Positions 4,500 to 59,829 of a stretch of DNA of 64,000 nt are shown here, piece by piece (the stretch's first letter is position 1; each line of letters opens with the position of its first letter). The DNA is from Seison nebaliae (Eukaryota > Rotifera > Pararotatoria > Seisonacea > Seisonidae). The translations under genes were made by a program, and so were the position numbers. The notes under the pieces are model-generated. The model saw only the letters and a program-made list of their open reading frames with translations, was not told the DNA's origin and did no database searches. Where the stretch lies: NCBI GenBank assembly GCA_023231475.1, contig JALJEE010001600.1, positions 1 to 64,000 of the forward strand, given 5' to 3'.

Positions 4500-4943
4500 A
4501 TGGGAATTTTCCGCCAATTAATCTTACCAATAACGGGAGCATGTTCTCTCATGATATTCGCGACGGATCAAATTGGGTCGATTGCTCGTGTTGAAGGTTT
4601 ATCGATGCAACCCACGTTGAATCCAACGAGAACGTCGAACGATATTGTTGCATTAAGTCGACTGGATAATCTCATGACTCCGGAACGTGGTGAAATTATC
4701 TCAATCAATTGTCCGACAAATAAGAAATTCAAATTAATCAAAAGAGTTAAAGCGATTTCTGGTGATCATTTAAAGTTACCTGAAGGGAAGAGTATTGTGG
4801 TACCAGAGGGGCATTGTTGGATTCTGGGAGATAATGAGTTACATAGTTATGACAGTCGTGAATTTGGACCGATTTCAGTTGGATTAATTAATGCGAAAGC
4901 AAAATATATAATATGGCCACCAAACCGTTGGGGCAGATTGTAG
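4500..4943 (+). CDS. IMMP2L: Mitochondrial inner membrane protease subunit 2
   Basis: This 147-residue, intronless protein belongs to the S26 signal-peptidase family. It would sit in the mitochondrial inner membrane and cleave sorting peptides on the intermembrane-space side. The N-terminus (residues 7-22) is a hydrophobic anchor. The catalytic serine is Ser35 in VEGLSMQPTLNP and the general base is Lys81 in KLIKRV; the later motifs GHCWILGDN, SYDSREFGPISVGLI and a C-terminal IIWPPNRWGRL match IMMP2L and not IMMP1L. Length is close to the mammalian protein. The catalytic dyad is intact, so it should be active. It is convergent with the galactosyltransferase on the other strand, with stop codons less than 20 bases apart. 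Confidence 0.93.
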   Translation: MGIFRQLILPITGACSLMIFATDQIGSIARVEGLSMQPTLNPTRTSNDIVALSRLDNLMTPERGEIISINCPTNKKFKLIKRVKAISGDHLKLPEGKSIVVPEGHCWILGDNELHSYDSREFGPISVGLINAKAKYIIWPPNRWGRL

Positions 4944-4961
4944 AAGATAATTTTTATTTAA

Positions 4962-6512
4962 TTAGAACGAAATTAGATAATGAACATAATTATCTTGACG
5001 TGATTGAGAAATGAAATCGAATCTAGTTCGACTTAACCGATTACGAGTTCGTTGTGGATTTCTTAGAAGTTTCCATCGTCCCAAATTCCTCGGTGATTGA
5101 GAATGAGGAAGACGCTGATATTTTATTTGTTTGTCAATAGACGGACGATAAATACAAATATTGAATTGTTGAATTGTCATTGACATTTCATCATCTTCAC
5201 CTCCCCATCCATTAAATTCATTAGAATAACCGTCGATCTGTTCGAACACTTTCCTCCAAATACAGAGCACTCCTCCTATTTATGGAATGACGTTATGTAT
5301 GAATAAAGAAAAAATGAAATGGAAAAGAAGAAAATACCAACCAAGTAACATTTGATAAGAATTATAATTCTGGACGGAAAATGACAAATGTTTTACCGAT
5401 GCAAATTTCGTTTTTTCACATTTATATTGCATCGAATTCAAGTCATTCGGAATCAGATCTACATCATGTACAACGAGACAGTCAATATTGTCAAAATGAT
5501 TCTCTATTAATCTCACTCCCGAATTGATGACACTTCCTTTATTGAACTTTTCAATATCTTCCACTAATTCAATTTGAATATCTTTCCCCAAATTATTAAG
5601 TGAATCAAAAAATTCATATTTTAAATTATCGTCGTTATTCAGTCGATATTTCTGTAAATATTTCATATAATTGAAATGTATATCAGAAAATTTCAAATTG
5701 AAATTTTTACTCGAAATTCGGAAATTATGTTTGGGTTGATGTTCAATGACGAAGATGTAATAATTATATTTTTCTTTTTGTAAATATAAATAAATTTTCA
5801 TTAAATTTAACCAAATCTTCAAATTTCTTCGCCGATTCCGATATGGAACAATTATTCCAATATTTTGTTGTTCTCCATCTTCCATACGTCTTATTGGAGA
5901 AACTGGTTCGATCAATACAGAAGAAGATAAATTGTAGTGCAATTGAATTTGAGATAATAATCGTTGACTTTCCTCATAAATATCACGTTCATCATTTATC
6001 GATATTGTCGGTGAAATTTCTCGTACTATTCGTTCATAACTTTTCCGAAACTCTATACAAATATCATTTATTACGCTTTTTTCCAATTGCTCTTTTTTCA
6101 CTCGAATTGGGAAAGACGTAATGTCTTTATTTGTTATTTGTTTAATTTTCGGTTGTTTGTCATTATTGGGTAATTTTTCTGGTGGAAGTGATGGTTTGAT
6201 TTCAGTCGAATTACAATTATTCTTCATCGATTTCAATTGACTCCATGAGAGAAGTCGTGTATAATTTCTTTGTGTTAAATTCCAGAATGGAAAGGATGAA
6301 TGAATTCGAAAATTTTTCGTAAAAAAATTAATTTCATTTGAGAAATAAGGAAGTAGATAAACTGATTGATTTGGTGAATTGTTTAATCGAAGTGAGGAAA
6401 ATGTAGAAGTTGGGAATGTTTCTATTCGTCTCGTGATATGACAAGAGAGAATGAAGATGATAAATAAGAAGAGTAGAATGAAATATGAACGTAGTGGACG
6501 GTCAGATTTCAT
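4962..6512 (-). CDS. Beta-1,4-galactosyltransferase (GT7 family), two exons
   Basis: A type II Golgi enzyme that would transfer galactose to a terminal sugar of glycans. Exon 1 (6512-5342) has a short cytosolic tail, a signal anchor (YFILLFLFIIFILSCHI, residues about 10-26), a long divergent stem, then the GT7 core: IGIIVPYRNRRRNLKIWL, YIFVIEH and the metal-binding LVVHDVDLIP. Exon 2 (5275-4962) supplies GGVLCIWRKVFEQIDGYSN and the acceptor motif WGGEDDEM, then a NLGRWKLLRN segment as in the C-terminal GT7 domain. The 66-nt intron starts GTTGGT; it is fixed by restoring the conserved LLGGV. The catalytic motifs are complete. Which subfamily it belongs to is unclear: the stem is unusually long and lysine/asparagine-rich. 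Confidence 0.88.
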
Positions 6513-6830
6513 TAGGGATTTCCATAAGAATATTTTATTTCATTTTCCTTAAATTTCTTCCAAATGTATTCTCGATTCACTACATTTATTAAAAGATCAA
6601 TAATATGAATTTAATGATTATGATTTCACTTTTCTATTAAAACAACAGAATTATCAGAAATAAATCATTTCCTCTATATCCATTATGAAGTTTTTATTCC
6701 AAACGAAGTAAAGAGAACAATATCATTTAGCAGATGAATAATACATTGTGGAGATGATTACATAAGCCGTAAAAAATAAGAATTGATTGTTTCTATAGAT
6801 AAGGAGAAGAACGATGGAACATCAATCTCG
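6513..6830. other. Intergenic DNA
   Basis: No gene seen. It should contain the 5' region of the galactosyltransferase and the 3' end of the neprilysin-like gene (both minus strand). Confidence 0.4.
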
Positions 6831-9800
6831 TTAATAAATATTGCATTTCCTCTTTGCATTCATTTTTGCACTAGCCGAACATTGGAACGCCTGTTGAAAT
6901 TCGTTGGAGAAGCTGACTGCCGCATTTAACCTGAAAATGGAGAAATGAAATAATTATAAATGTCGAATTGTTTGACATTAAGGAAGTCATTAATTCTCAG
7001 AGATAAAAGGTTGTTCTCAAACAAATCGAAATGATTATACTAACGCCAAATCTTCTTCATATTGTCCGCGCAACGTTTGATAATAAGAGTAGAAATCGAG
7101 TCGATTAGCACAGAATTTCTATGATAAATAATCAGAAATATTTACATGAAATATGAATAAATAATATAAAATTCAAGAATTTTAAAATAATGTTATGGAA
7201 CCTGAGCATATGTTATGAAGAAGGCTTGTTTTGGTGAAGGAGCACCGAAAATTGCAGTGTCAACATTTTTTAACCGATTATTTGCCACCCAATTATTATA
7301 CGCCTATTTTCAACAAATAATTTATATAAAAATTGATAGATTAAGGAAACTTCATATGCAATTTTTAATGCTCCAACATGGTTGATTGTTTGATAGGAAT
7401 AAGTAGCACCATGAAGAATAATTTTTTTCAATTGATTATTCACCAGATATGGTCCAACAGTACGATTTTTGTAGTAGTCGGTGAAGCATTGTCGTAATGG
7501 CACATATTTGTTTATCGTATCTTTTGTCCACCAAGAATATGATAAGTAATGACCAGTACGATCATATCGTCGACCTCCTTCATCAACACTTTTTAACAAC
7601 TGTTCGGCTAACTGAGTTCCAGCTGTGGCGAAGTTAGCTACTGCCGGCCATGATGATTTGAAGAAATTGGGTTGCATAAATGCGGCAGTAACAAAAATCT
7701 TCTGTAAAGATCGACTAAAAACAGTTCCTACTTCAAACGGCTTTACGTTTTCCCAAAATTCTTCAATTCCCACACTATTCCGCAGTTCATCAATTTTCCT
7801 TAATCGTCTCCAGGTGGCATGATTGACTAGAGTGTTAAAGATGGATTTCGTGTCCACTGTAAACTAAAGGAGATTAGATAAAAATGAATAAGAAAAGAAT
7901 TTTCAAACATTTAAGAAATGGTAGTCAAGAGCCACGTCACTTCCCACAAAATTTGGATAGCCCATTTTGAAATCTATTTTATGAATTTTAGATATGGCAT
8001 ATCTCAAAGTCTTCTTGTCCATCCACGTTTTAGCATCTTGTGTCAATCGTTTAACCATCGAATCTTTTATCATATCAGAAATGTCATGTAGAACTGATTT
8101 GGACATACCGGCGAATTTTTTATCGATAAAAATTTTTGATAAAGCTTCCGGCATATTATTCTTCATTACCGAAAAACAATAATATTCATTTCCTAAGAAA
8201 TCTTGCGTATTGTAGATTTTGTCTACCACTTCTCTTTGTGCCGCAACATAATCCGGTCCCAAATCTGATATATAAGTTGCAACCGTTTTCCACATAATGT
8301 AATTGAATAATTTCCTGAAAGAATAGAAATTAGAATAAGATTCGAATTTTGACATTGAAGGTCAAGAACGTCAATAATTAATAATATATTTTAGAGAATT
8401 ATCATTCACAGGAGTTTTAAGACAAAACCTGGGTTCGGCCGTTTTAAAATATTTCAATAATTCTTGGAAGTAAGCGATAGAATGAAAAGCGATTTGTGTT
8501 CTACTCGTAATAAGTTTGCTGTTGAAATAATTTTGTAACATTGTCCTTAATTCCTAAGATTTTGAAAAAAAGTTCAGATAATGTTTATGAAGATTTCAAT
8601 TAACTTGCGAGTTATTTAAATATTTCTTCTCCAATGATGAAAGATTGACAATATACGCTCGAATGGTATTATTAGACGTTTTGTCGACAATCTAATAGAA
8701 AAAAATAATAATTTAATAAAAATAAAATAAAAAATTAAGAGAACTTGTGCTAAATTTCTTTCGACATCTAAAATATCTGATTGTACTTCATTCAAATTAG
8801 CATCGAAAGTAGTTGGATTTAAATTATTATCTGTTTTGAGAATCGTCAAAATTTTTTTAATAAAATTTTTGTACAACGTAATTTCCTATATTAGCGAAAT
8901 ATTTAAGCGAATTATGAAAAACAAATAGATAACCGGTGAATCAAATGGTAACAAGAAGAATTTGATAGGAATTCGGAATGTTGGTTTTTCTAACTAAAAA
9001 ATTTTCATTGACATCTTAATGAAAATGGGAAGGTGTTTGAACAAACCCACAACATATTTTTTGTGTCACTTAAGGGACTTCGTTCGACGTTCATTCGAAA
9101 GAATCCTTCAACGTCCAGATACATTCTTAGATGCATCAAGTCATCTAAGACGGCTTTGAGGGACCATCCGATAGCGGTCGAGGATCCTTCGTTAAACAAA
9201 TACCAGCCTTGTTGAACGCCTCCAGCTGTTACATCTTTCTTTATTAAGTCCATTAAATGTTTTGGAGCAGTTGTCTTTGCTTTATAGTCATCTAGACATA
9301 GATTATAGAATTGCTGTAGTAAGTTCATAGTGAGAAAATCGGATAAATTGTGAAAATATTTCAAAACTTTTACTTTCTTCTCCCAAGAAGTATCTGTATT
9401 ACGAATAATGGTTGACTCCAACTCATTTTTCAATGTTTCATATGCTTGTTCAGCTACGAGAACCTTTTGTGTTACTTCGGTCTCTAAAGGAAGTAAATCA
9501 TATTTATTGTTCCACTTTCCACAAGCATATCTAATTTCATATAGTTTGAAAGTTATGAAAAATAAATTTTGGTGAACTTGTAAAAATCAGTACATGGATC
9601 TACTTTCGTGTTTATCAAATCAGCCATATTCGCACCGACCTCTAAACATCCGATTGTCTGACATGTTTTTTTTGGATCATCTGGATTTGGAGGTTGATAG
9701 AACCATTCGCCAATTCCACCAGGAGGTAGTAATAATGCTTCTCGTTTCACATTAACCAATAAATAATCACTTACAGTTTTATGAGCTGAAAAATTTATAT

Positions 9801-10115
9801 TAAAAAAATATATTAAAATTCGTTTCTCTAAAATTTTAATTTATTCTAACTGATCACAACTAAAAGAACGACGACTAAGATTGACAAGATGGCACCCAAC
9901 CACATGATGACTTTATAACACATAGATGAATTGCGATAAAAAGAGAAATTAATTTCCTTCTTATCATCCTCATCATGCAATGCAGTTATCGCTTTTTGCA
10001 TACGTTCTTCATCAGGAACTGGTTCTTCACCTGCATGTTCAGTAGTTTCGATCGGTTCTGTTTCAGTATCATTCTTTGGTGTTTGGATATCTCCAGTCAC
10101 ATCACTTAAGCTCAT
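6831..10115 (-). CDS. Neprilysin-like M13 protein lacking the zinc site (pseudo-peptidase), 12 exons
   Basis: Exons: 10115-9851, 9785-9578, 9530-9047, 8993-8934, 8885-8745, 8691-8605, 8553-8429, 8314-7909, 7863-7351, 7303-7202, 7118-7045, 6930-6831. Together they give about 750 residues, the usual M13 length: an acidic cytosolic tail, one membrane anchor (about residues 67-88), then a single extracellular M13 domain. Family landmarks are DPCTDFYKYACGKW, WKTVATYIS, WMDKKTLRYAISK, FMQPNFF, EGGRRYD, GALKIAYEAYNNW, and the C-terminal CSASAKMNAKRKC. However, the HExxH helix reads AEQLL, the ENxAD motif that brings the third zinc ligand reads QTINHVG, and the NA(Y/F) substrate motif is lost. It cannot bind zinc in the normal way, yet the frame is open in every exon, so it is probably a conserved non-catalytic homologue. 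All 11 introns begin GTT. Confidence 0.9.
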
Positions 10116-10375
10116 TTTCGGTTAAGAGATTGAGTAAGTTCTCATCAATTCTTTATAATCAAATAATAAAAATGAATTTAATTTGTGAACGAATATTTCA
10201 ACGACACATTCATCCGCTTATTGTATAAACAAAAGAAGATGTTATCTACATAAAATTTTGATGACTTTGAACTTCACCAACCAAACGTAGCAGGTTTATA
10301 TGGAGATTATTTGAAAATTAAAGTGTAAGAGATTATGGTATTTCAATGAAATTAAGTGGGAGAATTGTAAATTCT

Positions 10376-11891
10376 TTATTTATTTGTTCTACAATGGCAT
10401 TGTACAATTTTTGTATAAAATATTAAATATATAAATGGATCAGCGGCACTATTTAAAGTTGTAAATAAATGCGCATAATTAATCCAAATTGGTGGAACAT
10501 AAAAATTTGGAATAAGATTAAGGAGTTCGATAACGAAAAACGGTAATGTACATAAGATGAAAGCACTCACAATAACGAATGTTAATTGAACTGTTCGAAT
10601 TCTTGCTTTCGATATTCGATTTATTCGAATACTGCCCTTCGCCGACCTTAGACTGTTAGAAAAAATGACAGAATTCTTATAAATTCATAGAAGAAAATTA
10701 TTTTTCATTATATTCAAATTTACTAACCGATAATTCAGAGTCGGGTCTCGATTGGCTCATTTGATCGCTGCCTCGATAATTTTTAATTTTTGATAACGCT
10801 TTCCTCATACCATTCAATTTCTTTGGAATGACCATTTGGTAACTTATCTTCGACATGCGATAACCTTTATCTAAATTTTCAATCAATCAAAAATTAATTT
10901 TACGGAAAAATAGTTCGAAAATAAACTTCCGTTGAATTTAATAGATTTCGTCTCAAATAGAAAAAGATAATTGGAACATATTTAATTAAATTAGACAATT
11001 AATTGGAAACCGTTCGATAATCTGGTGAAGTATTTACATTAAAAGTTGGAGTCAAGAAAAGCTTGTTAGATTTTTTCAAGTTACGATAAATCAACACGTA
11101 TGATAATACGACGATTATTAGTGGAACAATAAAAACTGCTAAAAGTAGGAATGTATACCATATCTGAAAGATTTTGAAATGATTAATGAAAATTTAATTA
11201 TAAAATATTACAGTAACCGAAATGAAGAATTCCGTCGTGAAGATATCACAAACATGATTTTTTATTTGTATAAATGAAAATATCATTGAGGTTGAGCATA
11301 CAGCCAATAACCATGCACCGGTTACGAGACCAAATCGAAATTCTTAAAAATAATGAAAATTTATTAAAAATTTTAAATTCTCAACTTTTATCTGCAGTGT
11401 ACATTGGATGGCAAATAGCAAACACTCGATCAATCGCCACCACCACAACAATAAAAGGTGAAGCAAATAGTGGTAAAACCTGAAAATGGAAAATTGAAAT
11501 GTTTGGGAAATAGTTAAAATTTTGAACTTGAAGTGATCGAACGATGCGGCATGCGATAATTGCAGTCATTTGATGGTTCTGATGTAAATTAACAAATAGA
11601 ATGTTTAATTGATGTACAACAATACTATAGCCGATGGAGAAGAAGCCAACGGAGAGATCTTGAATTAAAACCGCAAAATATTTATAATTTTTCAACATCA
11701 ACAAATATTGTCAAACCTGCTATGGCTAAATGTAATATGAAGAAATGCATTCGAGTTTTCTTCTTTAACTGAATCCGAAAAATTACAATGGTATTCGCAA
11801 TTGTTATTGCTATGAATAATGTGATTTTAATAATATCCTCCAAATGATAATAAATCTCCATAGGTTCTGTTCCATTGACATGTTTGTTCAT
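10376..11891 (-). CDS. Class A peptide GPCR (vasopressin/GnRH-receptor-like), multi-exon
   Basis: Exons placed with confidence: 11891-11717, 11658-11528, 11479-11386, 11342-11218, 11163 to about 11029, and a last exon ending at 10376. They give TM1-2 (FFILHLAIADLSVGFF), the extracellular TM3 cysteine and CRIVRSLQVLPLFASP, a DRVFAICHPM form of the DRY motif, the TM4 tryptophan (TGAWLLAV), TM5 (PLIIVVLSYVLIYRNL), TM6 (TFVIVSAFILCTLPFF) and TM7 (LNSAADPFIYLIF, a D-P-x-x-Y variant of NPxxY). The KARIRTVQLTFVIV start of TM6 and the SLQV...ASP TM3 favour the vasopressin/GnRH/AKH group. Exon edges in the third intracellular loop (about 10700-11030) are uncertain. The ligand is not predictable. N-glycosylation site NGT near the N-terminus. 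Confidence 0.82.
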
Positions 11892-13743
11892 ATTCTAAGT
11901 TGAGAGAAGTTCGTTATCAAACATAAATTGAAGAGTTTGAAAAAAAAGATATTTCTGAATTGAATATCTTCTAAAAAGAATTTGGAATTGAAGAAAATTC
12001 TATTAGGGAAAAAGATTCTATGGATTAATATTATTCTTACCGAACGGAAATTGTTGAAAAGATTAAAATTATTAGTACGAGATTCGTGTAGAAGTTTCAT
12101 CTGGTATTGAATGTAGAAAAAGTGAATTTAATTTTAAATTGACATATTCCAAATAGAGGCAACATGAAATATTCATAGTAAATTTTATAAGATATATTTT
12201 TTGGGTAAACATCAAATCGTTTCGCATTCTATATGACCAGCTAATAAATTATGCAAAGAAGACTGGTGCTATTCATATATGCAATTGTTTTTCAAAGAGA
12301 CATGAAATAAAAGGTTGTTTAATTGACAAATATGAGAAGTACATTCTATGGTGGGTAATGGTGCAGAATGATTGTACATATAATATTTTTATATTTGATC
12401 CATCAATAAATTAACAAATAAATCATAATAGATCAGAAATCGAAACTGTTAATTTATGCGAAAACTGATTCTTAAACTTTACAATTCTTATTATACGTTT
12501 TATTATTATAAACCATTTTGTTTATGAAGAATAACGAATATTTTCGACGACTGCTTAAAGGAACATAGCAGTATAGAAACATTTGAAGGATTTTTTTTCA
12601 GCTAACCAGCAATTTCCATATAGATGGAATATTATTCTGAACATCCTTTGAACTAATTAGTATACATCATCATTAACAAGGAAAATGAACAAAATGTGAA
12701 AATAATACCCGCTTAAAAGAAAACTCAAAAAAATAAACAAAAAAAGTTGTTGTAAATCAGAACGTCGCCAAGGAAAATTTGAAGGGATAGTGTTGGATAT
12801 CGAATTGGAAACTTCTAATTATCAACTAGAAATGTTAAAATAATATACTTGATTCCATAATCATAAAGTCAGAAATTGTGCACTATATTTCTATCTTCTC
12901 AAACAAGACTTCCTATTTATGTCATATTGAAATTGAAATAATTATAAAATTGAGAATAAAAAAAATTAATAATAATCAAAAACACTTTTATTATTATTAC
13001 TAAAATTGTCATATTTCTCATTTAGATTAGACAATTTAAAGAAATCGTATCCGAATTATTGGAAGGACTTCTTCCAAAATTAATTAAATTTTATTAATAA
13101 TATTGTTAATGTCCTATTTATTGATTTGTTGATGATTTTCATAGTTCTTTATTCTCATTAATTTTAAATATGGCACAAGTGCATTGTACTACTCATTGGC
13201 AGTAAAATAAAGAAAAAGAAAAGTTTAGTATGAAAGTATGAAATGAAAATTTTATGCATATTTACTGATGGGATAATAATAAACTTTATACGAAAGTTCG
13301 TCCCACATAAATTTTCTTCATGTCAATTCTAATTTTTGGATATTATATTATTTAAGATCTATATCATTGTCATCTGACTCCCTAGTGAACAGTATATAAT
13401 GGACATCCTTCCCAATTGATTGTGCAGACAAAAATAAACAAACTTTCAAACTATAAAAATAAAAGGAAAATACTGTTTAATGAATTTTTGGAAATTCTAT
13501 TAAAAAAAAACTTATCTGTATGGAAACAGTTAGAAAGGATGAAAAAAATACTATGATCCGAATAAATAACTTATTCTTATGAGACATAGTAAGTCATATA
13601 GTTTAATAAGACTGTTATACATCCTTTTATTCATCCAATTCAATTTTAACCGTTATTTCATCCACATATAATGCACACAGACAAAATATATTATTCCAAC
13701 GACAACCTTTTTCATTAGCACATCTTGAATTCTCAATGAAATT
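11892..13743. other. Large AT-rich intergenic region
   Basis: About 1.85 kb without a supported gene. Many stops in all frames, poly-A/T runs and no motif recognised. It separates the divergent GPCR and C-type lectin genes, so both promoters should lie here. Confidence 0.5.
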
Positions 13744-20382: not shown

Positions 20383-22363
20383 TTAAGCTCGATAGGAAGT
20401 GGAATTATTGTCCATATTATAATCTTTTGATTTGCTTTGACATTTACATCGGTATTTGAATGTGATACATCTCAACACAAAATCGTCATATCCCAATAAG
20501 AGAGCTGAAATTAAGAGACATCCATGTGCTGTCCATGAATAGATGTAGCCCAATTTCCAAGTGACTTTCAAATCTAAATAATTTTCGATAGTTCCATTTC
20601 GAAGATATGTACAAGTTGACGCTAAGTCATTGTCAATCTTCTTCAATTGATCTGATAAATTTATTAGATAGTTGTTCGGCATCAGAGTGAAAGCAATCAT
20701 GACGGAAATACCTAAAATAACTATGAGATTCATTAGTTAATTTTTATAAGAATTAATCAAGCCAAAAATATGTGTAACATGCAGCTAACATAGCTTCGGA
20801 AGCTGAATGGAAATAATATGATTTGTCATTCGGTAATGATCTTTGATTATTCTTTCGACATACGAATGATACAATTATCAATATGATTCCTAAGATGACC
20901 AGAGATATTGTCAACAAATTCAAACAAACAATTGCGTCATGCCAATCTAGAAAAAAAACTACAATTAGATAATAGAGAGGAAAGGGAGTGACCTGCTTTG
21001 AAGAAAATCATAAATCTTGCATCTTCCAAGAAATTGATGGTTGATCGAACAGTTTGTGTTAAATTCTTTTCCAATTCTTGACTATTCCATGTTTCATCCA
21101 TCAACAGTAGACTAGCTGATGTTGGTAAACGAACCATGACTAAACCGATATCCAGTTGAATATGTGTTATAACGGGTGGCTTGCTATCTGCAATTTTACG
21201 AAAACATCCCAACATTTATCGAAAGGTTTTATGAGAAAATTAATTTAACAATAAATCACTTTCAACCATTGACAGTGGAATAAGCTGATGATTAAGAATG
21301 AGAAGGAGATTAGTTGGAAAAGGAAACCGATCAAACGGATTTCCTTCGTAAATGGTGGTTGCCAAATATATGATTGTAGTACATCGTTGAAATGAACTTT
21401 TTGCGATGTGGGATACATGTAATTCGTTTGTTTTGTGTCATTTGTAGAAGTTGTATATGAATCTTTTAAGTCATTTTTGATTGATGATGAATCAGAATAT
21501 AAAACGTTTTGAGCTTTCTTCTTTGCTGCTATTTGTTGTTTGGACCATTCATGCCAAGAGGGAAATTGAGTAAGTGAAGCATTCTGAAATAATTTCATTT
21601 CATCATTCTCATCTCGATTATCCACTGGAGTCAATATACTATTCTTCTTCGCATATTCAATAATTCCAATTACATTAGATGGATCGATTACGAAATGGGA
21701 AACTCGACGATTCTTTCTCTTATTCGAATTCTTCCTTCGAATCGACGACGCTGCAACCAACATATCTTCTGAATTGCCACTTTTACAAATGCTCTTCTTT
21801 CCATCATTCTTATCAATATAATTAAACTCATCATCTATTATCTTATCAGTGAGATTTTCTTCTAAATTTCCTGAATTTATTATTACATCAGTACTCTTCC
21901 GTTTTCGTATACCTGAATTCTTCCCGACAATTTCATTAATTATCGAATCATCAACATCATCATCATCATCATCATCAACAACAACAACATCATCATTGTT
22001 CGGTAATGTATTATCTGATAGAATTGTTGTTTGCGAATGTAAAGATTTCATATTATTCTTATTTGAAATATATTTCCTCCTCTTTTCTCCAATCTCTGAT
22101 AGTTTTTTGGGAGAAATTAAATTTTCATCTTTTCTTTTCAAATCTTTTATTCGTTTATCACTCACAGAAGGTTTCGATGGTTTTGGAATTTCTTCAACTA
22201 TTCTTTTCTTCTTTTCAAATTTCTTATCGTTCGACGATTTTTTTGTCTTCTCCTTTAACTTCTTTTCTTCATTTTTCGCCAATTGAAGTAATTTGGGCCT
22301 TTCAACACTCTTTGGTGTTTCATGAATATCAAATAAATCGATAACAGAATCCGAATCAGACAT
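20383..22363 (-). CDS. Charged N-terminal region joined to a four-pass membrane domain
   Basis: Exons: 22363-21267, 21183-20993, 20946-20779, 20711-20383. The first about 325 residues are highly charged and low-complexity, with K-rich clusters, a run of seven aspartates (VVVDDDDDDDVDD) and RKRK/KRKNRR patches that look nuclear. Then follow four membrane segments: LIGFLFQLISFSFLIISLF, a loop, LLTISLVILGIILIIVSFVC, ISVMIAFTLM, and WTAHGCLLISALLLG, with a loop between the last two carrying an N-glycosylation site (NGT). The splice from TM1 to the rest is my inference: donor GTTGAA and acceptor GATAG keep the frame. The second intron starts GTCACT, one of two non-GTT donors. No family recognised. 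It could also be two genes: a nuclear-type protein and a tetraspan protein. Confidence 0.55.
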
Positions 22364-26784: not shown

Positions 26785-27560
26785 TCACTGTTTACAACCC
26801 ATCAACAAAGGCAGAAAATATTCAAAAACATCTGATAAATAACAGTTACGGACTGCAAACAAATCACACGAAAGATGCCTTATTGGAAATCAAACAACAT
26901 TTCAACTCCTTCGAGTTGAACAAATTGACCCAGAAGAAGCAACCATCGTAATTGGAGATTGGAATATTGATTTTCAAAAATCTGCCCCAGGAAGTATTCC
27001 TAAACATAATGATTTTTATCCCCAAAAAAGGAAAACCTGCCAATGAACCGAAAAATCTTCCTCCAATAACAATTGATTCAACAACTTTAAAACTGATTGA
27101 AAAAATGATTCTTAACCGATTAGAGAAACAAACAAAATTCAACCAACTGTCATTCAGTTTTCAAAAGAGTGTCAAATGGCGACAACTTTTATTGTCAAAC
27201 TTTTATGCCAGGTCAGAAAACAAACGAAACAAAAAACATATATTGCAGCAATCGACGCATCAAAAGGCTTCAATAACATCGGAGATCCAGAGAATCAACG
27301 GAGATCCAGAGACATTGACCTTAAATCACATGAAAATTCAAACCACGAATGAATTGAATATCCTTTTAATTACCATCAATCACGATCTTAACGATAATAC
27401 AACGATCAATATTATCAAAAATAAAATAAAAGCAAAAGGAAATGAAATACTAACCAAAATGGCTCAAATGGATACGAACCTGAAAATGAAAATACTCAAA
27501 TATTTCATCAACGATTTATATGGCAGTAATCATATAATAAAAGGCAGTATCAAAAACTAA
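26785..27560 (+). mobile_element. Second decayed non-LTR retrotransposon fragment
   Basis: Reading several frames in order recovers an endonuclease piece (VYNPSTKAENIQ at about 26790, then IVIGDWNIDF at about 26950, the GDWN catalytic motif), the start of a reverse transcriptase (KLIEKMILNRLE, 27090-27125) and the palm motif A (YIAAIDASKGFNNI, about 27240-27280, with the catalytic aspartate). Frameshifts separate each piece, so it is inactive. Relic-like sequence may run on to about 27960, where it meets the gag relic on the other strand. Confidence 0.78.
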
Positions 27561-27994
27561 CAGACTGGACGATACATACAACACAACGATCATCAGAAAC
27601 ATGGCCAGATTGCCCAAAGTATCGAATAGAGCTGCTACCTTCTTTGTCGCAGGATATAAGCCATTGCTAATTCTGCTAAACCAGAGACAAGAAAAATTCA
27701 TCAGCAATCAGAATATCAATTTCTCTATACGGAACTACGAAGTCGATCAAACGAACCATATCTATTAAGAATATATATTAAGAACATATTATCATATTAT
27801 AATATAAGAAAAGAAAACCTAGAACATTTCATGAAGACGTTTAAAATAGAACAACAAATTCCATTCGAGATCAACCAATCGGCAAGAGAACTCAAAGATA
27901 CATTGGAGAAAAAGAACTACTACCAATACGAAGAAAAATGTCAAAAGAAGAAGTATCAACATGTAAAAAAATGAAAATGAAATGTAAAAAAACT

Positions 27995-28840: not shown

Positions 28841-28850
28841 CGCTACCACG

Positions 28851-30057: not shown

Positions 30058-30101
30058 AAATCTGTTCTAAATCACATGAAATAATCAGTTTGATTAATGA
30101 A

Positions 30102-41802: not shown

Positions 41803-44255
41803 ATGTTCCGTTCGTTGAAATTCTTAAAGAAATGTTCGACTTTTTATAAAATTTCATCATATCAGAGATATGTGTCAACGATAAATCATAATAAAATTTT
41901 TTCCCGTCAACACGGTCAAGTGATGGGAGGAAATGTGTTGGGTAAATCGGATATAATGGATGGAGAGAAAGATATTTCCAAAAGAGAATTATTGGCATTA
42001 ATTGGAGAATTCATCTGGCCAGCAGATCAACCGAAAATTCGTCGTCGAGTAATGGCCGCTGTCGCATTATTATTCTCATCAAAAGTTTCTATAAAATCCT
42101 TCGAAAATGTCTATTTATTTTCCTATTTATTTGTTGAAAAGGCGTTGACGGTTTCAGTTCCATTTCTCTTTAAATATATCGTCGATGGACATACCAATCG
42201 CGAAATGTTAGAGATGATGCAACATGCAGATAACGTTCTATTTACTACTGGATCAGCATTGATTATAGGATGTTCATGATTTTCATTTGAATTTCTATTG
42301 ACCAATAATATTCTTATAATTATTCGTTAGATGGTATTGCTCGAGTTTCTGCTCAAGGCTTCAACGAATTAAGAAATGCAATTTTCGGAGTTGTTGCCCA
42401 ATCTTCGATTCGTACGATTGCCAGACGTCTATTTCTACATTTACATAATTTGGATCTTAATTTCCATTTATCGAAACAAACTGGTGGATTATCGAAAGCA
42501 ATCGATCGAGGAACACGGTTCAATTATTAATACAGTTCTCAATTGTTCAAATTCACAATTTTAGAGGTATCAGTTTCCTTCTCAATTCTCTCGTGTTCAA
42601 TGTATTTCCTACAATATTGGAAGTATCAATAGTTTCCGGAATTTTAGTTAGATAAATTTATTTTTTGAAATTTTTTGTAAAAATTTTCTTTTCTGATTTA
42701 GTACTATCGATTTGGAATCGAATATGCAGCTGTCACTTTAGGTTGCATTGGCAGTTATGCTGCTTTCACATTCTTGACTACCAAATGGAGGTGAGAATTT
42801 TTATAAGTTATTTAATATTGTTTTTGTGTAGAACAGCATTTCGTATTCAAATGAATAAAGCTGACGGAGAAGCAGGAAATCGAGCAGTCGATTCTTTAAT
42901 AAATTATGAAACAGTAAAAGTTTATTTTTATTTCAATTGAAATTTCAAGTAATTGAATTGTGAAGTATTTCAATAATGAGGAATATGAAGGTGATAGATA
43001 TGATCAGTTGTTATTGGAATATGAAAAAGGAGCAATTAAAACTCAGACTAGTTTAGCTTTCCTGAATTGGGGACAGAATTTGATTTTTTCAACCGGTTAA
43101 TTCTATTTTAATTTTTATCAAAACTTTTATTTCTTTATTATCTTAAGGTATTACGGCAATGATGTGGTTGGCATCAAAAGGAATTATGGACGGTTCGATG
43201 ACAGTGGGTGATTTGGTGATGGTGAATACTTTATTATTCCAATTGTCAATTCCATTAAATTTTTTGGGTACTGTTTATCGGGAAGTACGTCAATCACTCA
43301 TCGACATGTCAACCATGTTCCAATTAAGTAAGATCGAACCATCCATTAAAGTTCTTTATATTTAAATATTAAATTAATAATAATATAATATATAAATTTT
43401 ATGAATTTATAGATCAATATCAATGCATATCCGTTGAGAGTTGATCGAAATAATTGTGATATAATTTTCGATAATGTCTCCTTCAAATATCCGTCGGGTG
43501 ATGGATCTCAAGAGATTTTCAAAAATATTTCATTCAATATATCGAAAGGAGAGAGAACTGCAATCGTCGGTTCATCCGGTTCTGGTAAATCAACAATAGT
43601 TCGATTATTATATCGTTTCTATGATCCGTCAAACGGAAAGATATTTATCAATGGACAAGATATAACACGAGTTGATTTGAATTCATTAAGAAAGACGATT
43701 TCAGTTGTACCTCAAGATTGTGTCTTATTTCATGATACAATTTATCATAATATTCATTATGGTGATTTGAGTAAATCGATGGAGGATGTTATTCGAGTGG
43801 CTAAAATGGCAAATATTCATCAATCAATTGTCGGTCACTTCCCCAAACAATACGATACGATGGTTGGCGAACGTGGATTGAAATTATCAGGCGGAGAAAA
43901 ACAAAGAGTAGCGATAGCTCGTGCTATTTTGAAAGATTCCCCAATATTCATTTATGACGAAGCAACGGCGTCATTAGATGCGATTACTGAACAAGTTGAA
44001 TAATTTAAATTAGTTTAAGAACTTTTATTTTTTTTCTAGAATGTTTTATTGGCGATAGAGAAAGCATTCGATTCCAAAACCAGTTTGATAATAGCACATC
44101 GATTATCAACCATTATGAATTGTGATAAAATTATCGTATTGAACGAGGGGAAAGTGGTGGAATCTGGACGACATAATGAATTGATTGAAAGAGATAATTC
44201 ATTCTATTCCTATTTATGGGAACAACAGAACATGAATCGAAAACTTAATAAATAA
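41803..44255 (+). CDS. ABCB7: Mitochondrial ABC transporter ABCB7/Atm1
   Basis: Ten exons: 41803-42084, 42142-42271, 42331-42517, 42565-42646, 42702-42790, 42832-42919, 42965-43095, 43147-43350, 43413-43994, 44040-44255. A half-transporter of the inner mitochondrial membrane that exports a sulfur/glutathione compound needed for cytosolic Fe-S clusters. The N-terminus is basic and serine-rich, like a targeting sequence. The membrane part has [57 protein letters not shown] and [14 protein letters not shown]; the ATPase has Walker [11 protein letters not shown]-loop, signature [14 protein letters not shown], Walker [11 protein letters not shown] and H-loop AHRLST. All are intact. The intron after exon 5 starts GTGAGA, the other eight GTT. 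Confidence 0.95.
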
Positions 44256-46501: not shown

Positions 46502-47347
46502 ATGTTTCCAGAATCATTGTGGAATTGGATAAATAAAACTCTTTTTGATCTTGGTTAACTTCCAGTTAAAATATGGAAGTTTAGTTAAAAATTTTATTTC
46601 AAGGTTTATGGAACAAAAGTGGGAAACTTGTATTTTTGGGATTGGATAATGCTGGAAAAACGACACTTCTCCGAATGTTAAGAGACGGGAAAATTTCCCA
46701 ACCAGTACCAACATTTCAACCAAGTTCATTCCATCTGTGAAATTCTTTTCAAGTAGTTCAATTTTTATTTCTTTTTCTTTATTAGCTTCCGAAGAACTTA
46801 AGTTGGGAAATATAAAATTCACAACTTATGATCTGGGTGGTCATAAACAAGGTTAATTGAATGAATTTTTTAACAAATAAAAATTATTTTCCAATCAGTG
46901 AGAAAAGTGTGGAAGAATTACTTCCCAGTTGTTGATGCAATTGTTTTCCTCGTAGACATCAGTGACAGAAGTCGAATAATTGAAGCACGATCCGAACTTC
47001 AAGTTTAATTTTTTCAAAACTGTTTAAATACTTTGGACTTAACTAGAGTTTAATATCTGACGAGCAAGTATCCCAATGTCCAATATTAGTTTTGGGTAAT
47101 AAGATGGATGAACCGACTGCAATTAGTGAAATGGAACTCAAATATTACTTAGGCTTACTGGGGACATGTACTGGCAAAGTTTTACAATCTTTCTACTTTA
47201 TTTTCCATTCTTTTTACTTTACAAATTTGTTAGGAAAATGTGTTACGAACAGAATTGGCGAGTCGTCCTGTCGAATTATATCTATGTAGTATTTATAATC
47301 AAGAGGGATATGGCGAAGGCTTTCGCTGGCTTTCCGAATTTCTGTAA
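46502..47347 (+). CDS. SAR1: Small GTPase SAR1
   Basis: Six exons: 46502-46553, 46604-46723, 46786-46851, 46899-47002, 47047-47178, 47234-47347. The GTPase starts COPII coat assembly at ER exit sites. The N-terminal amphipathic helix ([23 protein letters not shown]) is typical of SAR1, which has no myristoylation glycine. G1 GLDNAGKTT, switch I PTFQPTSEEL, G3 DLGGH, G4 NKMD and the CS of G5 are present. The C-terminus reads [11 protein letters not shown] ... [11 protein letters not shown]. Five introns of 44-62 nt, all starting GTT. Confidence 0.95.
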
Positions 47348-48176: not shown

Positions 48177-51107
48177 TTAATAACAAAATTCACATTGTAG
48201 AAGAAACCGTATTATGGTTTGTTCTTCTTTATAAATCAGATATTCGGATTGACCGAAAGAAGATTGTGCCGCTTTCGTAATTTTCTTCACTTTTCCTTGG
48301 GGCACTATAATTTCGTGGTTATCTATTTCAATTAATAAATCTTGTGCACTATCTGGTTCTGTTCGTCCAACAGCATGAACTGAATCATAACCTTTTGGTG
48401 CTGCTTTTAATCCACAATTGTCTTTCATAAGTTCATAGGTGCTCCCCAAAAGAACTTCATTCAAAAACATGAAACCGATTTGTTTCGAATTAACATTAGT
48501 TGTTCCAACTATTTTTATCGATCAAAAAACATAAATGTCAAAAATAAAATAACCATATCCTGATGATTTTCCATTTTCAGATGCGAAATAAATTCCTCTA
48601 CCGACACGTCCACCTGAATGTGGTAATATTCTTAGTCCCGTTTTTAAAATAGCTGCCACTACTGGTACCGAAGTGCCGTGCCATAATAATTTTCTGTTTT
48701 CTATAGAATCGAATTTATCTGCTCTTTCGAATTCTCCATCACGTTTCACTTTCCAAATATGTAAAATTTTACATTTTCTAAAACCTTGAGTATTCGTACA
48801 ATAATTTTTGATGTATGACGCTTCATCTTGTGTTGGAGCTACATAATTCAAGTTACAGTTCAGCGAATCATATTTTGAGTCTAAAGGATTTGGCTTAACA
48901 AGAACTTCTTCTTCTTTTATCGTTTCACTTTTCTTCAATAAATCCTGTGCAATCTCTATATCTGCCAATACGTTCAACATATTATATTTATCCTGTAACA
49001 TCTCCTTTGTGTTGATGGTAGGTGGTCGAGTTCGACCAAAAGCGTGTGGAATTAGAGTATAGAATTCTGATGATATTTCTGCTAATTTGCTGACTAAGAA
49101 AACGGAATTAATCCAAATGTTCATTTAAATATACCAACCACTTGTAGTTTCCATTGCATTTTCCAATTTCTCTAAAACTACATAACCTTTCGCCAATTGA
49201 CTTTTACTCAAGTTACCCAATGGCATTTTCTTAACATCTTTCCAAAAGAAAATTTTATAAAAATTGAAAAATTAATAATTATAAACTGATATTCATTTGT
49301 TTCAATGATTCAGTGAACATGTTAGAACTAAATATTAATTCTATCAATCGCTGAGTAATTAAAAGTAATTTGGATGATTCAAATGTTACGGTCGTAACTG
49401 GTGCTACATCTAACACCTGTCTTGTTTCTGAAGGTACCTTTGGAAGAATTTGTAGGAAATAGTTAAATAATTTAACTTCTTTTGATTGAATTTCAATCAA
49501 CGTATATTTACCAGCAACTGGTTCAAATTCTTTTCTCGACTCCCAATAATTCTTTGTTTTATCCAAAAACTTTTTCTCGAACGCTGTTATTGCTTTCTTC
49601 TTATCTCCAAACGTTTTAGAAGTCTTTTGTCCATTTTCACCCTTGTCAATGTCAATTGATTATAATTAATGAAAATAAATAATAACAATTCTTCCCCAAC
49701 GATTCCACATATAATATGATGACCCATCGGTTAGTAATTGAATAATGTAGAATTTGTTATTATTATTATTAATGTTTGTTTGGTTTAACATACAATCATA
49801 ATCATCTAACACCTAAACGAAATTAGAAAATTTTATTTCTCGCAAATTTTTGAAAGATTACCTTATTTTCCTAAGTGTATACACATTACGACATTACTAA
49901 GGTAACAAGAGGAATTCCGTTAAAAATATAACGATTTATTATTGACATTTTTGACGAAATAAAAAAAATAGACATAAAAATTGAACATCATGAAAATTGA
50001 TTGTCTCACAATATGCATTAAGAAAAGATTGTTTATTTCTTTGACGATATTGTTGTTTACCAATAAAACCACCCACAACCTTAATTTACTTAACAATGTT
50101 TATTTCACTTATTATCATCAGAAAAATGACTCTATTCATTATTCTTCTATATTCTGATCAAATTCTGTGACTTATTCAATATACGTACATTATTCTTTGT
50201 ACAAATTTCTCCTGTAATTATAACTGTTAGAAAGCGTTTGAAAACGGTTACTAAAAAAGAGGACTCCTTTCCGAATATAACTTGTTATTATGAAGATTAT
50301 GACCATTTAAAGAACAAATTTGTTGTCACTTTTGAACAGAGCTATGTATCAAAGATAATTGGCGATTATTCCTTAAGAATATCCATTTTCTTATATTATA
50401 TTATACTTATATATGTATATTTTCTTTATCTATTTTGAGAATATATTGACAAGACTATAATTGGAAAAAAATAAAATATATTGAACAAAATGAAGGACAA
50501 GATCCATACGGACCAATATTACATAAATATTTGGTTATCGTCTTATTTAGCTACTATGAAATACGTCAATTTTCATAATATTGAGTAGAACTATAATATG
50601 TACATAGAGATAAATTGAATAACAATTAGATGTACATACAATTTAATGAAAGTTTCTGAATAATTGAAAACTGTTTTGGAAAAATGAGAAATTCTCTATA
50701 CGGATTTTCGATTATGATAATTAATCAATATAATTTTCATAATAACATTTATATGTCACTAACAAATTGAATAGAAATACTTAATGGAAATTTCTAATTG
50801 ATAATTGAAACGACAATCTAACATGATGAGCATCGGCAAATGGATATAACGAATCAACTTCATGTTTTATTTCTTCCTTTGCCATCGCAAGTTTTTTTAT
50901 CGTTTCCGAATGTGTGCTGGTCGTGGTAGTTGTTATTTCAGTTTCAATTTCATTCTCTTCTTCCACTTCTTCATCCTCTTCAATTTTCTCGACAATTTTC
51001 CCTAACAAATTGATGATAAAATGAAAGTTCCGACTCGAAAGATTCGAGTGATATAAAACGAACTTTTTTTCGTAGTTCTTCGTCCTCTTGGCATGATTAT
51101 TGAGCAA
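48177..51107 (-). CDS. PARP3: Poly(ADP-ribose) polymerase, PARP3-like
   Basis: Exons 49812-49687, 49641-49287, 49237-49139, 49093-48554 and 48508-48177; an N-terminal exon ending at 50823 (to 51107) is joined on weaker evidence. A nuclear DNA-break sensor. The WGR domain (DDYDCMLNQTNINNN, FYIIQLL, WNRWGRIGENGQ) is followed by the helical regulatory domain (KYTLIEIQ, MNIDVKKMPLGNLSKSQLAKGY, SSEFYTLIPHAFGR, LADIEIAQ) and the catalytic domain. The H-Y-E triad is present: RKLLWHGT, GRGIYFAS, SQSEYLIY. The segments LKTGLRILPHSGGRVGRGIYFASEN, KGYDSVHAVGRTEPDSAQD and IVPQGKV point to PARP3 and not PARP1/2. The proposed first exon encodes an acidic region ending VDSLYPFADAHH, which joins to VLDDYDC across a 1-kb intron. 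No N-terminal zinc fingers. Confidence 0.9.
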
Positions 51108-51323
51108 AGAATTTCACAATAATTATCAACTATTTAATTATGTCCACAAGAGAATTATGTAAGGTTATCGGGAACGACGTCAGTCTAATTTGTGAGAGAT
51201 GGAAATAAAAATGAAAAATTGTCCCAATTGACATTGAATGATGAAATAATTTGTTTAAACAGACGGCCAATATTTTTTCGAATTTACACAACTTTTTTTA
51301 GATTTACCAGTTTCACACTTGTT

Positions 51324-52569
51324 ATGTCGACTGGTAGTCAACCACTTGTATGGAAAGGTTGTCCATCGAAACCGAAACCGATGGAGGAAAAGAATTTGTC
51401 GAATATTTTAATCATAAAGAAGCCGACGACTGATCTCATCGATCCGTTTCAACAATTGATATGTTACCTGATCTCATCGAACAATTTCGAAACTTTAGTT
51501 ATCGAAGGACGTGATTGGCAGAAAACAGCGTTGGCACAAGATCCCTCATCATTGACATGTGGATCGACGAGGATTAAATTTCTTCATGTAGAGCAGGCGA
51601 TGGATAATGAGAGGACGTTCGACGAATATAATCAATTATCAGAAGAAGCGAAAGAAATTCTAAATAGTATTGATATCGTTATATGTTTAGGTGGTGACGG
51701 TACATTCCTCTATGCGTCTTCATTGTTCCAAGTTCTTTTCTTTCCCAAACATCTTTTCTCATTAAGATTTTCTATTTCTTTTGTTTAACTAAAAAAATAG
51801 GGTAAATGTCCTCCAATTCTCCCATTTAAATTGGGCTCCTTAGGATTCCTCACGTCCTTCAACTTTCTTCAATATCAATCAGTTCTCAAACAATGTTTCA
51901 GTGGTTCTCATTTTTTATTTTATTTTAATTCAAACAATTCTTTAAACGCATTTTTTTAAAGGTGAATTAAGTACAATGAATAGAACACGATTAAACTGTC
52001 GAATTAAATCAGAAAATCGCAACGGCAATTTTCTCATTTTAAACGACATCACTTTCGATCGAGGAATTTCACCTAATTTCTCTTTTCTTCGAATTTATAT
52101 TAACGACAAATTCGTTACCACTGTACAGGGTGATGGACTAATAATCGCCACACCCACCGGATCAACATCATATGCGATGTCGGCCGGATCATCTCTAGTT
52201 CATCCTTTGGTTTCCGCTATGCTCATCGTACCAATCTGTCCACACACTCTATCATTCCGTCCAGTAGTCATTCCAGCAGAAAATGTTCGTTTACGAATTA
52301 CAATGGATGATTCGTCCAGATCGAATTGTAACGTTTTATTTGATGGACGACATAGAATGGCACTCCAACCTAACGAATCGTTAGTGTTTCTTTCAAGAAG
52401 ATATTTATGAGAAAAACTTATTCTCTTTCGTTCATTCAGAATCGAAATAACATTATCAGATCATCCTATTCCCACCGTCTGTTTAAGAGATTCGATGCAT
52501 GATTGGTTCTCATCGTTGGCCGAATGTTTACATTGGAATCATCGTGTGCAACAGAAAGCAATGGATTAA
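51324..52569 (+). CDS. NADK: NAD kinase (cytosolic, human-type)
   Basis: Exons: up to 51731, 51801-51903, 51962-52379 and 52440-52569; introns start GTTCTT, GTTCTC, GTTAGT. It phosphorylates NAD to NADP. Motifs: WKGCPSKPKP, NILIIKKP, CLGGDGTFLYASSLFQG (the GGDG site), PFKLGSLGFLTSFNF, LNDITFDRG, TTVQGDGLIIATPTGSTSYAMSAGSS, PICPHTLSFRPVVIPA, VLFDGRHR, and the C-terminal VCLRDSMHDWFSSLAECLHWN. The start is uncertain: the ATG at 51324 precedes the conserved part, and an upstream in-frame ATG at 51192 would add 44 residues. The last intron is fixed by restoring ESIEITLSDHPIP. Confidence 0.94.
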
Positions 52570-52579
52570 ACAAAATTTA

Positions 52580-56146: not shown

Positions 56147-56653
56147 AAGAAACTGAAAAAAAACATAAATTGGAGAATTGTGGAATTTCTAATTTATTTA
56201 TATACTTAATCCAATTCATATTTCTTATTGTGTTGGGGCGGATAACTCTCATCAACTCTTCAAATTTATCGACTTAATGTTAACTGTTGTTAGAATTTGG
56301 TTAGAGAAACTGTTTTATCATCATGTTCTATTACCCCCAACGAGTACGCGGTGTACATTTTTTTTAATAGTTGAATTTTTCACATTAATTTAATCGAACC
56401 CACATTCTTTATGTTTTTCATTCCCTTCTTTTTTCTTGAAACTAACTTAGAATTTAAAGTTCGTTTGAAGAAAATTAACAAATTTCTTTGGATATCGATA
56501 AAAATCGGAAAATCTCAGATTTATTTGTCAATTCAATGAATTACCGATTGTTTCATATATATGGTTGAAAAAAATATCCTAAATTATTAGAATTAGTACA
56601 TATAACAATTATAAGTATTATATATAATGATGATTGAAACAAGGTTTCGAATA
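56147..56653. other. Intergenic DNA
   Basis: AT-rich; no gene beyond the peptide's possible 5' region. Confidence 0.4.
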
Positions 56654-58186: not shown

Positions 58187-58741
58187 TTTGAAGTTACCGA
58201 AATTATCAGTTATTCGTTTTGGTAAGAGACAACAAATGTCGAATGGCCAAATAGGAAACTTTCAATATTGAAACGTCATCATGGAAATGATGAAATCGAT
58301 TATCGAAGGTCTCTATAATGTTCGTATAATTCATAATGGCAAAGAATTATAGGTGAATTGATCGATAAAATGTTCGATGCCTAGTTCAGTCTGATAGTAT
58401 CTCTTAATACAACGCACAATATTGACCCGAAAACACACAGAAACATTGTTGAAAATTAATTAGTTACTCACTTTTTTATCATGAAATAGAGTCTCCTTAT
58501 TGAAACTATTTCCGAATGAACAAACCATCTAATTTACTCACATTCATTTAGAGAAGAATAAGAAAGTAAATTTTATTTAAAAAAATACAATATATTATAA
58601 TGAAATTAAAACTAAAAGATGATTCACCAAATGAGATGTATGATCAACTTCAATCCATCCATGAATATTTACAAGGAGATGTATGTTCTTATAGAACAAA
58701 TTAAATTGGAAATGAACGAAAAGAAAAATTTAATGGAAAAT
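58187..58741. other. Intergenic DNA
   Basis: No gene recognised; presumably the SLC7 promoter region on the minus strand and the 3' flank of the coiled-coil gene. Confidence 0.4.
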
Positions 58742-59829
58742 TTAATCACGTAAAATGTCTTGTAATTTTTGCAGTATCGATCGATATGGCGGGGTCAATG
58801 ATCTACTTTCCCTTTGTTCTCTCAACATTTCATTATTTAATTTATCATCATCATCATCATCAACAACATTGTCATCATTGTTTTTATCATACAAACGATG
58901 ATTATTTATCGTACAATTCATTTCTTCCTCGTCGTCAGTTGTTGTTCGACGGGCGTTATCATATTCTTGAATTGTTGTGAGCGAATCAGGAAATTTCACC
59001 GAAGATTTTGATCGTCTCAAATTATTATTCGTTTCATTCCGCACATCAAACATTGATTGGAAATGACGATTATTCTGATATTTCTCTTCCAATTCTCGAT
59101 AGCGAGTTAGAAGAAGATTATACAAATCGAAAATTTCAGTGAAAAGTGAAGGACGTTCTTCAACTGGATCAATTTCATTAAACTGTTCCGTTTCATTTAT
59201 AATATCATGATCTCTCTCGTCTTCGTAAATCTCTTCAATTGTCGTCGATTTGGGAAGTGGTCGATGTTTCTCATATAAATTAATCAATTCTTTCGATAAA
59301 GTTTCACAATTCGTACAGTTTAACCGACAATCGATTTCTTTATCAAATTTTTTAGTTTTTGGACTTCTCCTCAATTTCTCTTTAACATTTTCTATTTTCT
59401 CCTTCTTCATTTCCGTCATTATTCCAATGGATCGAGTTTCAACCATTTCCTGGCATTGTAATTGCATTTTCTCATACATCTTTTCATTTGATAAAACTAA
59501 ATCTTTCCATCTTTTCAATTGATGAATTCAATTACAAAAAATTCAGAAACTTTCGGATTTCCTTATCTTTCTCTTTTACTTCTTTCGTCAATTCCTTCAA
59601 TTTTGTCATTTGTTGCCGATTGTCTACTTCCAATGAATAAGCGTAACTTGTTTCTCGTTCACGATACTTTTGAGCTTCTAATCGTTGACAATCTAATGTC
59701 TATAAATATTTATAATTTTAGAGAGAATTAAATAAAAACCTTAATAATTTCATCTTTCATTAATAAATCTTTTTCCATTTCGGTGAATTTCTCGATGAGT
59801 AATTCAATTTTTTCTTCTAAAAATTCCAT
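58742..59829 (-). CDS. Coiled-coil protein, family not recognised
   Basis: Exons 59829-59740, 59699-59551 and 59510-58742; introns (40 nt each) start GTTTTT and GTTTCT. About 335 residues. The N-terminal 110 residues form a heptad-rich coiled coil (MEFLEEKIELLIEKFTEMEKD, EEK/KELTKEVKEKDKEIRK). A C-x2-C pair (CTNCETLSKELINLY) follows, then a second coiled coil (FDLYNLLLTRYRELEEKYQN) and an acidic, disordered C-terminus with a run of aspartates (VVDDDDDDK). It may be a cytoskeletal or cargo adaptor, but I cannot place it in a family. Confidence 0.65.

Follow-up and report, generated by a model that had tools for sequence, protein, structure and literature searches.

GTT 5' splice sites and U1 snRNA genes with an altered 5' end in the rotifer Seison nebaliae

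Genes and introns of the window

The DNA described here is a stretch of 64,000 nucleotides from Seison nebaliae (the window), part of a contig of 68,698 bases (C815) in an assembly of 36.03 Mb and 846 contigs. It carries genes for ABCB7, SAR1, PARP3, NADK, a neprilysin and a tetraspan protein, and our subject is the 5' splice sites (donors) of their introns together with the U1 small nuclear RNA (snRNA) genes of the same genome. The ABCB7 protein of the window is 97% identical to the public Seison nebaliae protein SNEBB_001584. Seison nebaliae belongs to the rotifer order Seisonacea and has a published genome of about 46 Mb with compact genes (PMC8351084).

Introns were placed by using a spliced protein-to-DNA aligner that accepts GT..AG introns only, is blind to the third intron base (+3) and takes homologs from outside proteins as queries. 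A donor was called homology-fixed when its score exceeded that of any other donor by a margin of at least 10. In ABCB7 (forward strand), nine donors were fixed in this way, eight of them GTT: 42085..42141 (GTTTCTAT; 57 nucleotides, in frame and stop-free; margin 25 with 6 homologs, the intron being removed in the public Seison protein too), 42272..42330 (GTTCATGA; margin 86.7), 42518..42564 (GTTCAATT; margin 56), 42647..42701 (GTTAGATA; margin 38.7), 42920..42965 (GTTTATTT; margin 22), 43096..43147 (GTTAATTC; margin 99.7), 43351..43412 (GTTCTTTA; margin 65.7) and 43995..44039 (GTTGAATA; margin 43.8). The ninth, at 42791..42831 (GTGAGAAT), begins GTGAGA, fits a canonical U1 and is fixed with a margin of 86.5 (GTT only: -86.5).

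All homology-fixed introns of the four other conserved genes begin GTT. These are the four of SAR1 (forward strand) at 46724..46785 (GTTCATTC; margin 53), 46852..46898 (GTTAATTG; margin 37), 47003..47046 (GTTTAATT; margin 49) and 47179..47233 (GTTTTACA; margin 41); the two of PARP3 (reverse strand) at 49238..49286 (GTTTATAA; margin 27) and 48509..48553 (GTTATTTT; margin 44); and the three of NADK (forward strand) at 51732..51800 (GTTCTTTT; margin 87), 51904..51961 (GTTCTCAT; margin 17) and 52380..52439 (GTTAGTGT; margin 17). The seven neprilysin introns (reverse strand) lie at 9786..9850 (GTTAGAAT; donor margin 12 with a coral homolog and 47 with the Seison protein), 9531..9577 (GTTCACCA; margin 15), 8315..8428 (GTTTTGTC; margin 16), 7864..7908 (GTTTGAAA; margin 15), 7304..7350 (GTTTCCTT; margin 23), 7119..7201 (GTTCCATA; margin 31) and 6931..7044 (GTTAGTAT; margin 23). 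For the first of these, the acceptor given is that supported by the public Seison protein; alignment to the more distant coral homolog put it at 9738.

An earlier reading made from the letters of the window alone (the sequence-only reading) had claimed that its introns begin GTT almost throughout, and this is upheld by 24 of 25 homology-fixed donors obtained without use of +3. Four small-margin introns were set aside, one in PARP3 (GTA, margin 6), one in NADK (GTT, margin 1) and two in the neprilysin gene (GTT, margin 2; GTC, margin 5), and their inclusion gives GTT in 26 of 29. Outside the window, homologs of DDX, RNMT, GAS8 and YEATS4 fixed 12 introns, of which 10 are GTT; with 8 small-margin introns included, window and outside together give 39 of 45. 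The three homology-fixed exceptions (GTGAGA, GTACAT and GTGGGA) each have a purine at +3. When the public Seison protein models were aligned back to the DNA, GTT was found in 8 of 9 introns of SNEBB_001584 and in 20 of 20 of SNEBB_001575.

Gene finding and controls

An unsupervised gene finder was trained on 20 stretches comprising 252,237 bases (0.7% of the assembly). Seeded with a uniform, a canonical GTRAGT or a GTC donor, it ended at GTT in 257/318, 242/313 and 253/303 donors, respectively (77-84%). For further analysis, donor positions +3 to +6 of the trained finder were made uninformative (the blind finder), and donors with a posterior of at least 0.9 were used unless stated otherwise; GTT then accounted for 114 of 135 donors (34/38 in the window and 80/97 outside), against a background of T at +3 in 40.5% of 22,105 GT sites (binomial p = 8e-26). 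The coding and acceptor parameters of the blind finder come from a training that had also learned donors. The GTT share climbed with the posterior, from 212/296 at 0.5 through 139/176 at 0.8 to 114/135 at 0.9. At a posterior of at least 0.8, GTT was the majority donor in 16 of 19 stretches, the exceptions being L015, L016 and L024. The terminal AG of introns was a fixed requirement of the aligner and part of the seed of the finder; the finder retained it (98% G at the last base). Introns are short: the 256 GTT introns predicted by the trained model have a median length of 51.5 nucleotides.

As controls, six mock pairs of letters were put in the place of GT. The mocks yielded between 8 and 55 donors each at the same cut-off, compared with 135 for GT, and T stood third in 4/21 for GA (background 29.7%), 12/40 for CT (40.4%), 16/55 for GG (25.6%), 2/11 for TT (35.9%), 12/37 for CA (37.1%) and 4/8 for AT (40.1%). 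GG and AT were somewhat above their own backgrounds, AT most clearly at a posterior of at least 0.8 (22/35), and no mock came near GT.

The near-universality of GTT that the sequence-only reading described stands for the window and is weaker beyond it, where roughly a sixth of the donors depart from GTT (2/12 homology-fixed, 17/97 by the blind finder). Its individual donors in weakly conserved genes are to be taken as putative. The two exceptions that it named were both recovered with +3 uninformative: the GTGAGA donor at 42791, and the GTCACT donor at 20992 of a tetraspan-gene intron (20947..20992, reverse strand), which received a posterior of 0.98 from the blind finder, no homolog being used.

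Donor consensus beyond the third position

Usual animal donors follow (A/C)AG|GTRAGT, with G at the last exon base (-1) and at intron position +5 as the strongest positions after GT. Seison donors do not show this pattern. The 114 blind GTT donors have A at -1 in 54% and G in 19%, A at -2 in 56%, G at +5 in 18%, and T (42%) or A (36%) at +4; the excess of A over coding composition (35.6% A) is significant at both exon positions (p = 7e-5 at -1, 6e-6 at -2). In the mock sets at a posterior of at least 0.8, A occurs at -1 in 23-36%, save for TT (54% of 26), and at -2 in 31-40%. The 37 homology-fixed donors agree, with 19 A and 11 G at -1, 26 A at -2 and 9 G at +5. The donor consensus is close to AA|GTT and the shift reaches past +3; the preference for G at -1 and +5 is partly kept, at a level far below that of usual animal donors.

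U1 snRNA genes

A covariance search of the Seison genome for U1, which scored 41 out of 293 first-look candidates, found at least four genes (Rfam RF00003; 97.4-112.9 bits against a gathering threshold of 69.5, model positions 1-166 covered in all four); the count is a lower bound because only these 41 candidates were scored. Three of the four start with AUACUAAC in place of AUACUUAC, a change of U to A at position 6 (U6A; the genes are called A6 genes below). They are U1a (C208:8280-8439, reverse strand) and U1b (C647:4426-4585, reverse strand), whose first 11 letters are AUACUAACCUG, and U1d (C762:47440-47598, reverse strand), whose first 11 letters, AUACUAACUUG, combine U6A with a change of C to U at position 9 (C9U). 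The fourth, U1c (C208:6576-6739, L002:1501-1664, forward strand), has the canonical 5' end AUACUUACCUG. A changed U1 snRNA was one of the causes proposed in the sequence-only reading, which named the U1 5' end as the thing to check; the 5' ends support it in three genes of four, with one canonical copy remaining. The three A6 genes are accordingly classed as U1 with an altered guide and not as canonical U1. U1c and U1a lie about 1.5 kb apart on C208 (6576-8439) and face each other, as a duplicated pair might.

Position 5 of U1 pairs opposite intron position +4 (PMC10581693), which puts position 6 opposite +3 and position 9 opposite exon position -1. It follows that U6A matches a U at +3 and that C9U in U1d matches an A at -1.

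Mean column identity among the four genes is 76%, and in 15 of 41 predicted pairs both bases have changed with pairing kept. The U1A-binding loop AUUGCAC (the Rfam consensus) is kept in all three A6 genes; U1c has AGAGCAC and may therefore be losing a standard U1 protein. The exact pattern ATACTNACCTGG occurs in the genome in U1a, U1b and U1c; it occurs at two more places, where N is C or G, and these have no match among the Rfam families. Downstream, at 9 nucleotides from the end of the model, U1a, U1b and U1d all have AATTAAACT, a motif chosen by eye that is matched exactly in 0.4% of shuffled regions. The U5 gene and one of the three U2 genes are likewise followed by an exact copy; copies with one mismatch follow U1c and another U2 gene, and that of the remaining U2 gene has two mismatches. 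A word search for a common upstream element of the snRNA genes gave nothing clear. TYRCACTTTY, noticed by eye and then scanned for, is exact at -95 to -71 of U1c, U1d, U2a and U5, and would lend weak support to these U1 genes. U1d thus has both flank motifs, U1c the upstream one, and U1a and U1b the downstream one.

The contigs themselves were examined for their introns. On C208 (U1a and U1c), 10 of 11 donors at a posterior of at least 0.8 are GTT; on C647 (U1b), GTT is found in 4 of 6 homology-fixed donors and in 12 of 20 finder donors at that posterior. Because both contigs carry GTT introns, U1a, U1b and U1c belong to Seison, and host contamination was rejected for these two contigs on the same grounds.

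Other spliceosome components

The remaining core snRNAs are standard in the genes found. The one U6 gene has an intact ACAGAGA box, the one U5 gene a standard loop 1 (CGCCUUUUACUAA), and the three U2 genes the standard branch-site region (GUGUAGUAUCUGUUC), so that U2, U5 and U6 all carry the core motifs of U2-type introns. A changed U6 contribution, also raised in the sequence-only reading, is not favoured, the single U6 match being standard; a shift driven by U5 at -1 is not favoured either, given its standard loop 1. A search of the Seison genome for U12 snRNA gave no match, and the control genomes were likewise silent.

Among proteins, the LUC7, zf-U1 and Methyltransf_10 families match in Seison. 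Loss of the writer of N6-methyladenosine (m6A) on U6 was considered and set aside on the one Methyltransf_10 match; that family includes other methyltransferases, bacterial ones among them, so the match leaves METTL16 unproven. The U1-C gene (L037, C664) encodes a zinc finger reading N-Q-G-K-N beside the RNA backbone contacts. The human finger has C-S-G-R-K there and would differ from it at residues 25, 26, 28 and 29. A described double mutant has its changes at the last two of these positions (PMC4383343).

As a separate observation, the three U2 genes (L031, L032 and L033), when compared with the Rfam consensus, contain one additional U directly ahead of the part that recognizes the branch site, in the context GAUCAA-U-GUGUAGUA (GACCAA in L033).

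Pairing of U1 with the donors

Each of the 33 possible single changes in the canonical U1 11-mer was scored by the number of pairs formed with the 135 blind donors. U6A gained most (+0.75 pairs) and, starting from A6, C9U was the best of 30 changes (+0.39); the 37 homology-fixed donors gave the same winners (U6A +0.86, then C9U +0.36). By pair count, the best and the next-best single changes are thus the two present in Seison U1 genes. Over 22,089 GT sites in the same sequence, A6 gains just 0.09 pairs (4.92 vs 4.83). GTT donors form 6.04 pairs with an A6 U1 and 5.04 with the canonical one, whereas the 21 non-GTT donors form 5.17 and 5.76, respectively, a contrast that is largely by construction because the two classes are split at the same letter.

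Interpretation and alternative explanations

Given that donors have shifted in the sequence sampled, that U1 genes carry the changes described and that the U6, U5 and U2 cores are unaltered in the genes found, we consider it likely (probability about 0.82) that the 5' splice site and U1 snRNA have co-evolved in Seison, which would retain U2-type GT-AG introns with a donor near AA|GTT and a retargeted U1. An A6 U1 would pair with U at +3, and U9 of U1d would pair with A, or wobble with G, at -1; the A6-type genes would then be expressed, be dominant and select the donors. As to order, a duplication of U1 probably came before the gain of A6 by one copy. The coexistence of both U1 types could then let introns change from GTR to GTT at no cost; A6 copies would multiply, one of them adding U9, and the demand for G at +5 and -1 would relax. 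The surviving ancestral end probably reads the remaining GTA and GTG donors. Such a two-guide system, with A6 and A6+U9 U1 reading the majority AA|GTT donors and the ancestral copy the residual GTA/GTG ones, is a tentative extension to which we would give slightly less than even odds; if true, it would be a natural, genome-scale co-evolution of U1 guide and 5' splice site in an animal.

Several findings weigh against the co-evolution of donor and U1. The 21 non-GTT blind donors are among them, and may include errors of the gene finder. A cruder stacking-energy score places U6G (-1.9) ahead of U6A (-1.53) and C9U (-1.45), so that the ranking of U1 changes depends on the score used; starting from A6, it prefers C9U as well. 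Pairing at +4 and +5 is poor with every Seison U1 found (G at +5 in 18-24%) and amounts overall to about 6 of 11; such weak pairing leaves room for other determinants of the donor. U1a and U1b have no TYRCACTTTY in the 250 nucleotides upstream (best matches with 3 and 2 mismatches), and the canonical copy, having that motif, could be the main U1. The Sm site of U1d looks imperfect by eye, and the two sampled stretches of its contig C762 (L015 and L016) are gene-poor, with short, doubtful models and GTT in 5 of 11 donors, so that introns do not confirm this contig; U1d is tied to Seison by the shared 3' and upstream motifs.

It is unlikely that the GTT preference was first set by U6, U5, Prp8 or another protein and that U1 adapted second or drifted. 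The U1-C zinc finger, altered beside its RNA contacts relative to the presumed human sequence, speaks for this order, and a U1 adapting second would fit the donors equally well. Commitment has been argued to occur at the hand-over to U6/U5 (PMC11732430), and donor shifts in yeasts arose without U1 change (PMC10581693). However, the U6 and U5 genes found retain the ACAGAGA box and loop 1, respectively, the LUC7, zf-U1 and Methyltransf_10 families match, and both U1 changes are the best donor fit by pair count, which would be unexpected under neutral drift.

We regard it as quite improbable that the A6-type genes are unexpressed or minor variants of the kind known from human U1 genes (PMC5159530), with canonical U1 doing the work and GTT caused otherwise. 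The missing upstream motif of U1a and U1b would fit this, but compensatory changes preserve the U1 fold in all three A6 copies, which also retain the U1A loop and the 3' motif; it is the canonical copy whose U1A loop is altered and whose 3' motif has a mismatch. An artefact of base composition, or of donors picked by a GTT rule, is hardly credible: GTT already makes up 40% of GT triplets, the sequence-only reading admittedly used the rule for some donors and the AT mock has some excess of T, yet the aligner and gene finder made blind to the position, all three seeds, the six mocks and the public annotation agree on GTT.

Comparison with known systems

Seison shares introns that start with GT and probably end in AG, the U1 fold and the standard U2, U5 and U6 cores with canonical metazoan splicing, and differs from it in A at U1 position 6 in three of four genes, T at +3 and much reduced G at -1 and +5. 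It is classed here as splicing of the U2 type in which the U1 guide has been altered. The U1 5' end ranks among the most conserved RNA stretches of eukaryotes. Altered U1 copies beside the canonical one are found, as in Seison, among human variant and engineered U1, with changed 5' ends; in humans, unlike Seison, canonical U1 dominates and donors are not known to be shifted. Entamoeba histolytica donors, taken to be GTTTGT, start with GTT as Seison donors do. Unlike Seison, that organism is reportedly without U1 snRNA (PMC13292270).

The tunicate Fritillaria borealis is, like Seison, an animal that has left the usual donor at genome scale, but it has two U1 versions with identical conserved 5' ends and changes in U2AF and m6A, and its authors remark that the change did not go by way of an evolving U1 (PMC13326754). 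Seison, by its U1 gene sequences, appears to have taken that very route, its U1 end having evolved. In Saccharomycotina, switches of the donor to +4 A/U are a lineage-specific donor shift like that of Seison; there, U1 ACUUACC and U6 ACAGA are invariant where found, the U1 5' end is invariant in Saccharomycotina and outgroups even with shifted donor preference, and the switches have been linked to METTL16 and SNRNP27K (PMC10581693). A multi-species donor study states that a clear correlation of donor variation with U1 sequence has yet to be demonstrated (PMC10599564), and it is debated whether the 5' splice site is chosen by U1 pairing or by the later hand-over to U6/U5 (PMC11732430).

The passages on introns and splicing in the Seison genome paper are silent on splice-site sequence, with donors and snRNA unmentioned there (PMC8351084); a later Seison paper nowhere mentions introns, splicing or snRNA (PMC12256650), and a paper on lamins mentions alternative splicing in Seison in passages that are silent on donors (PMC10125929). 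In the literature covered, with most subscription papers outside it, we found no account of GTT donors with an altered U1 in Seison or rotifers. Seison looks like a natural compensatory experiment, in which U1 has changed, the U6 and U5 cores have not, and donors would follow U1, and it illustrates an animal weakening two usually strong donor letters, G at -1 and G at +5. Gene predictors trained on GTRAGT may mis-annotate its genome.

Other genes in the window

The public model SNEBB_001575 (window positions 6831-11900, reverse strand) fuses a G-protein-coupled receptor with the neprilysin (PF00001 with PF05649 and PF01431), and is probably two genes merged by annotation. The neprilysin itself seems, by eye, to have no HExxH zinc motif around positions 7540-7660 (reverse strand), reading AEQLLKS where the coral homolog P0126 has GHEISHG, and may therefore be catalytically dead; a paralog at L025 retains GHELTH (by eye). 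Fragments of reverse-transcriptase-like open reading frames at 2769-3977 and 27009-27974 resemble, by eye, broken elements of the type without long terminal repeats (non-LTR).

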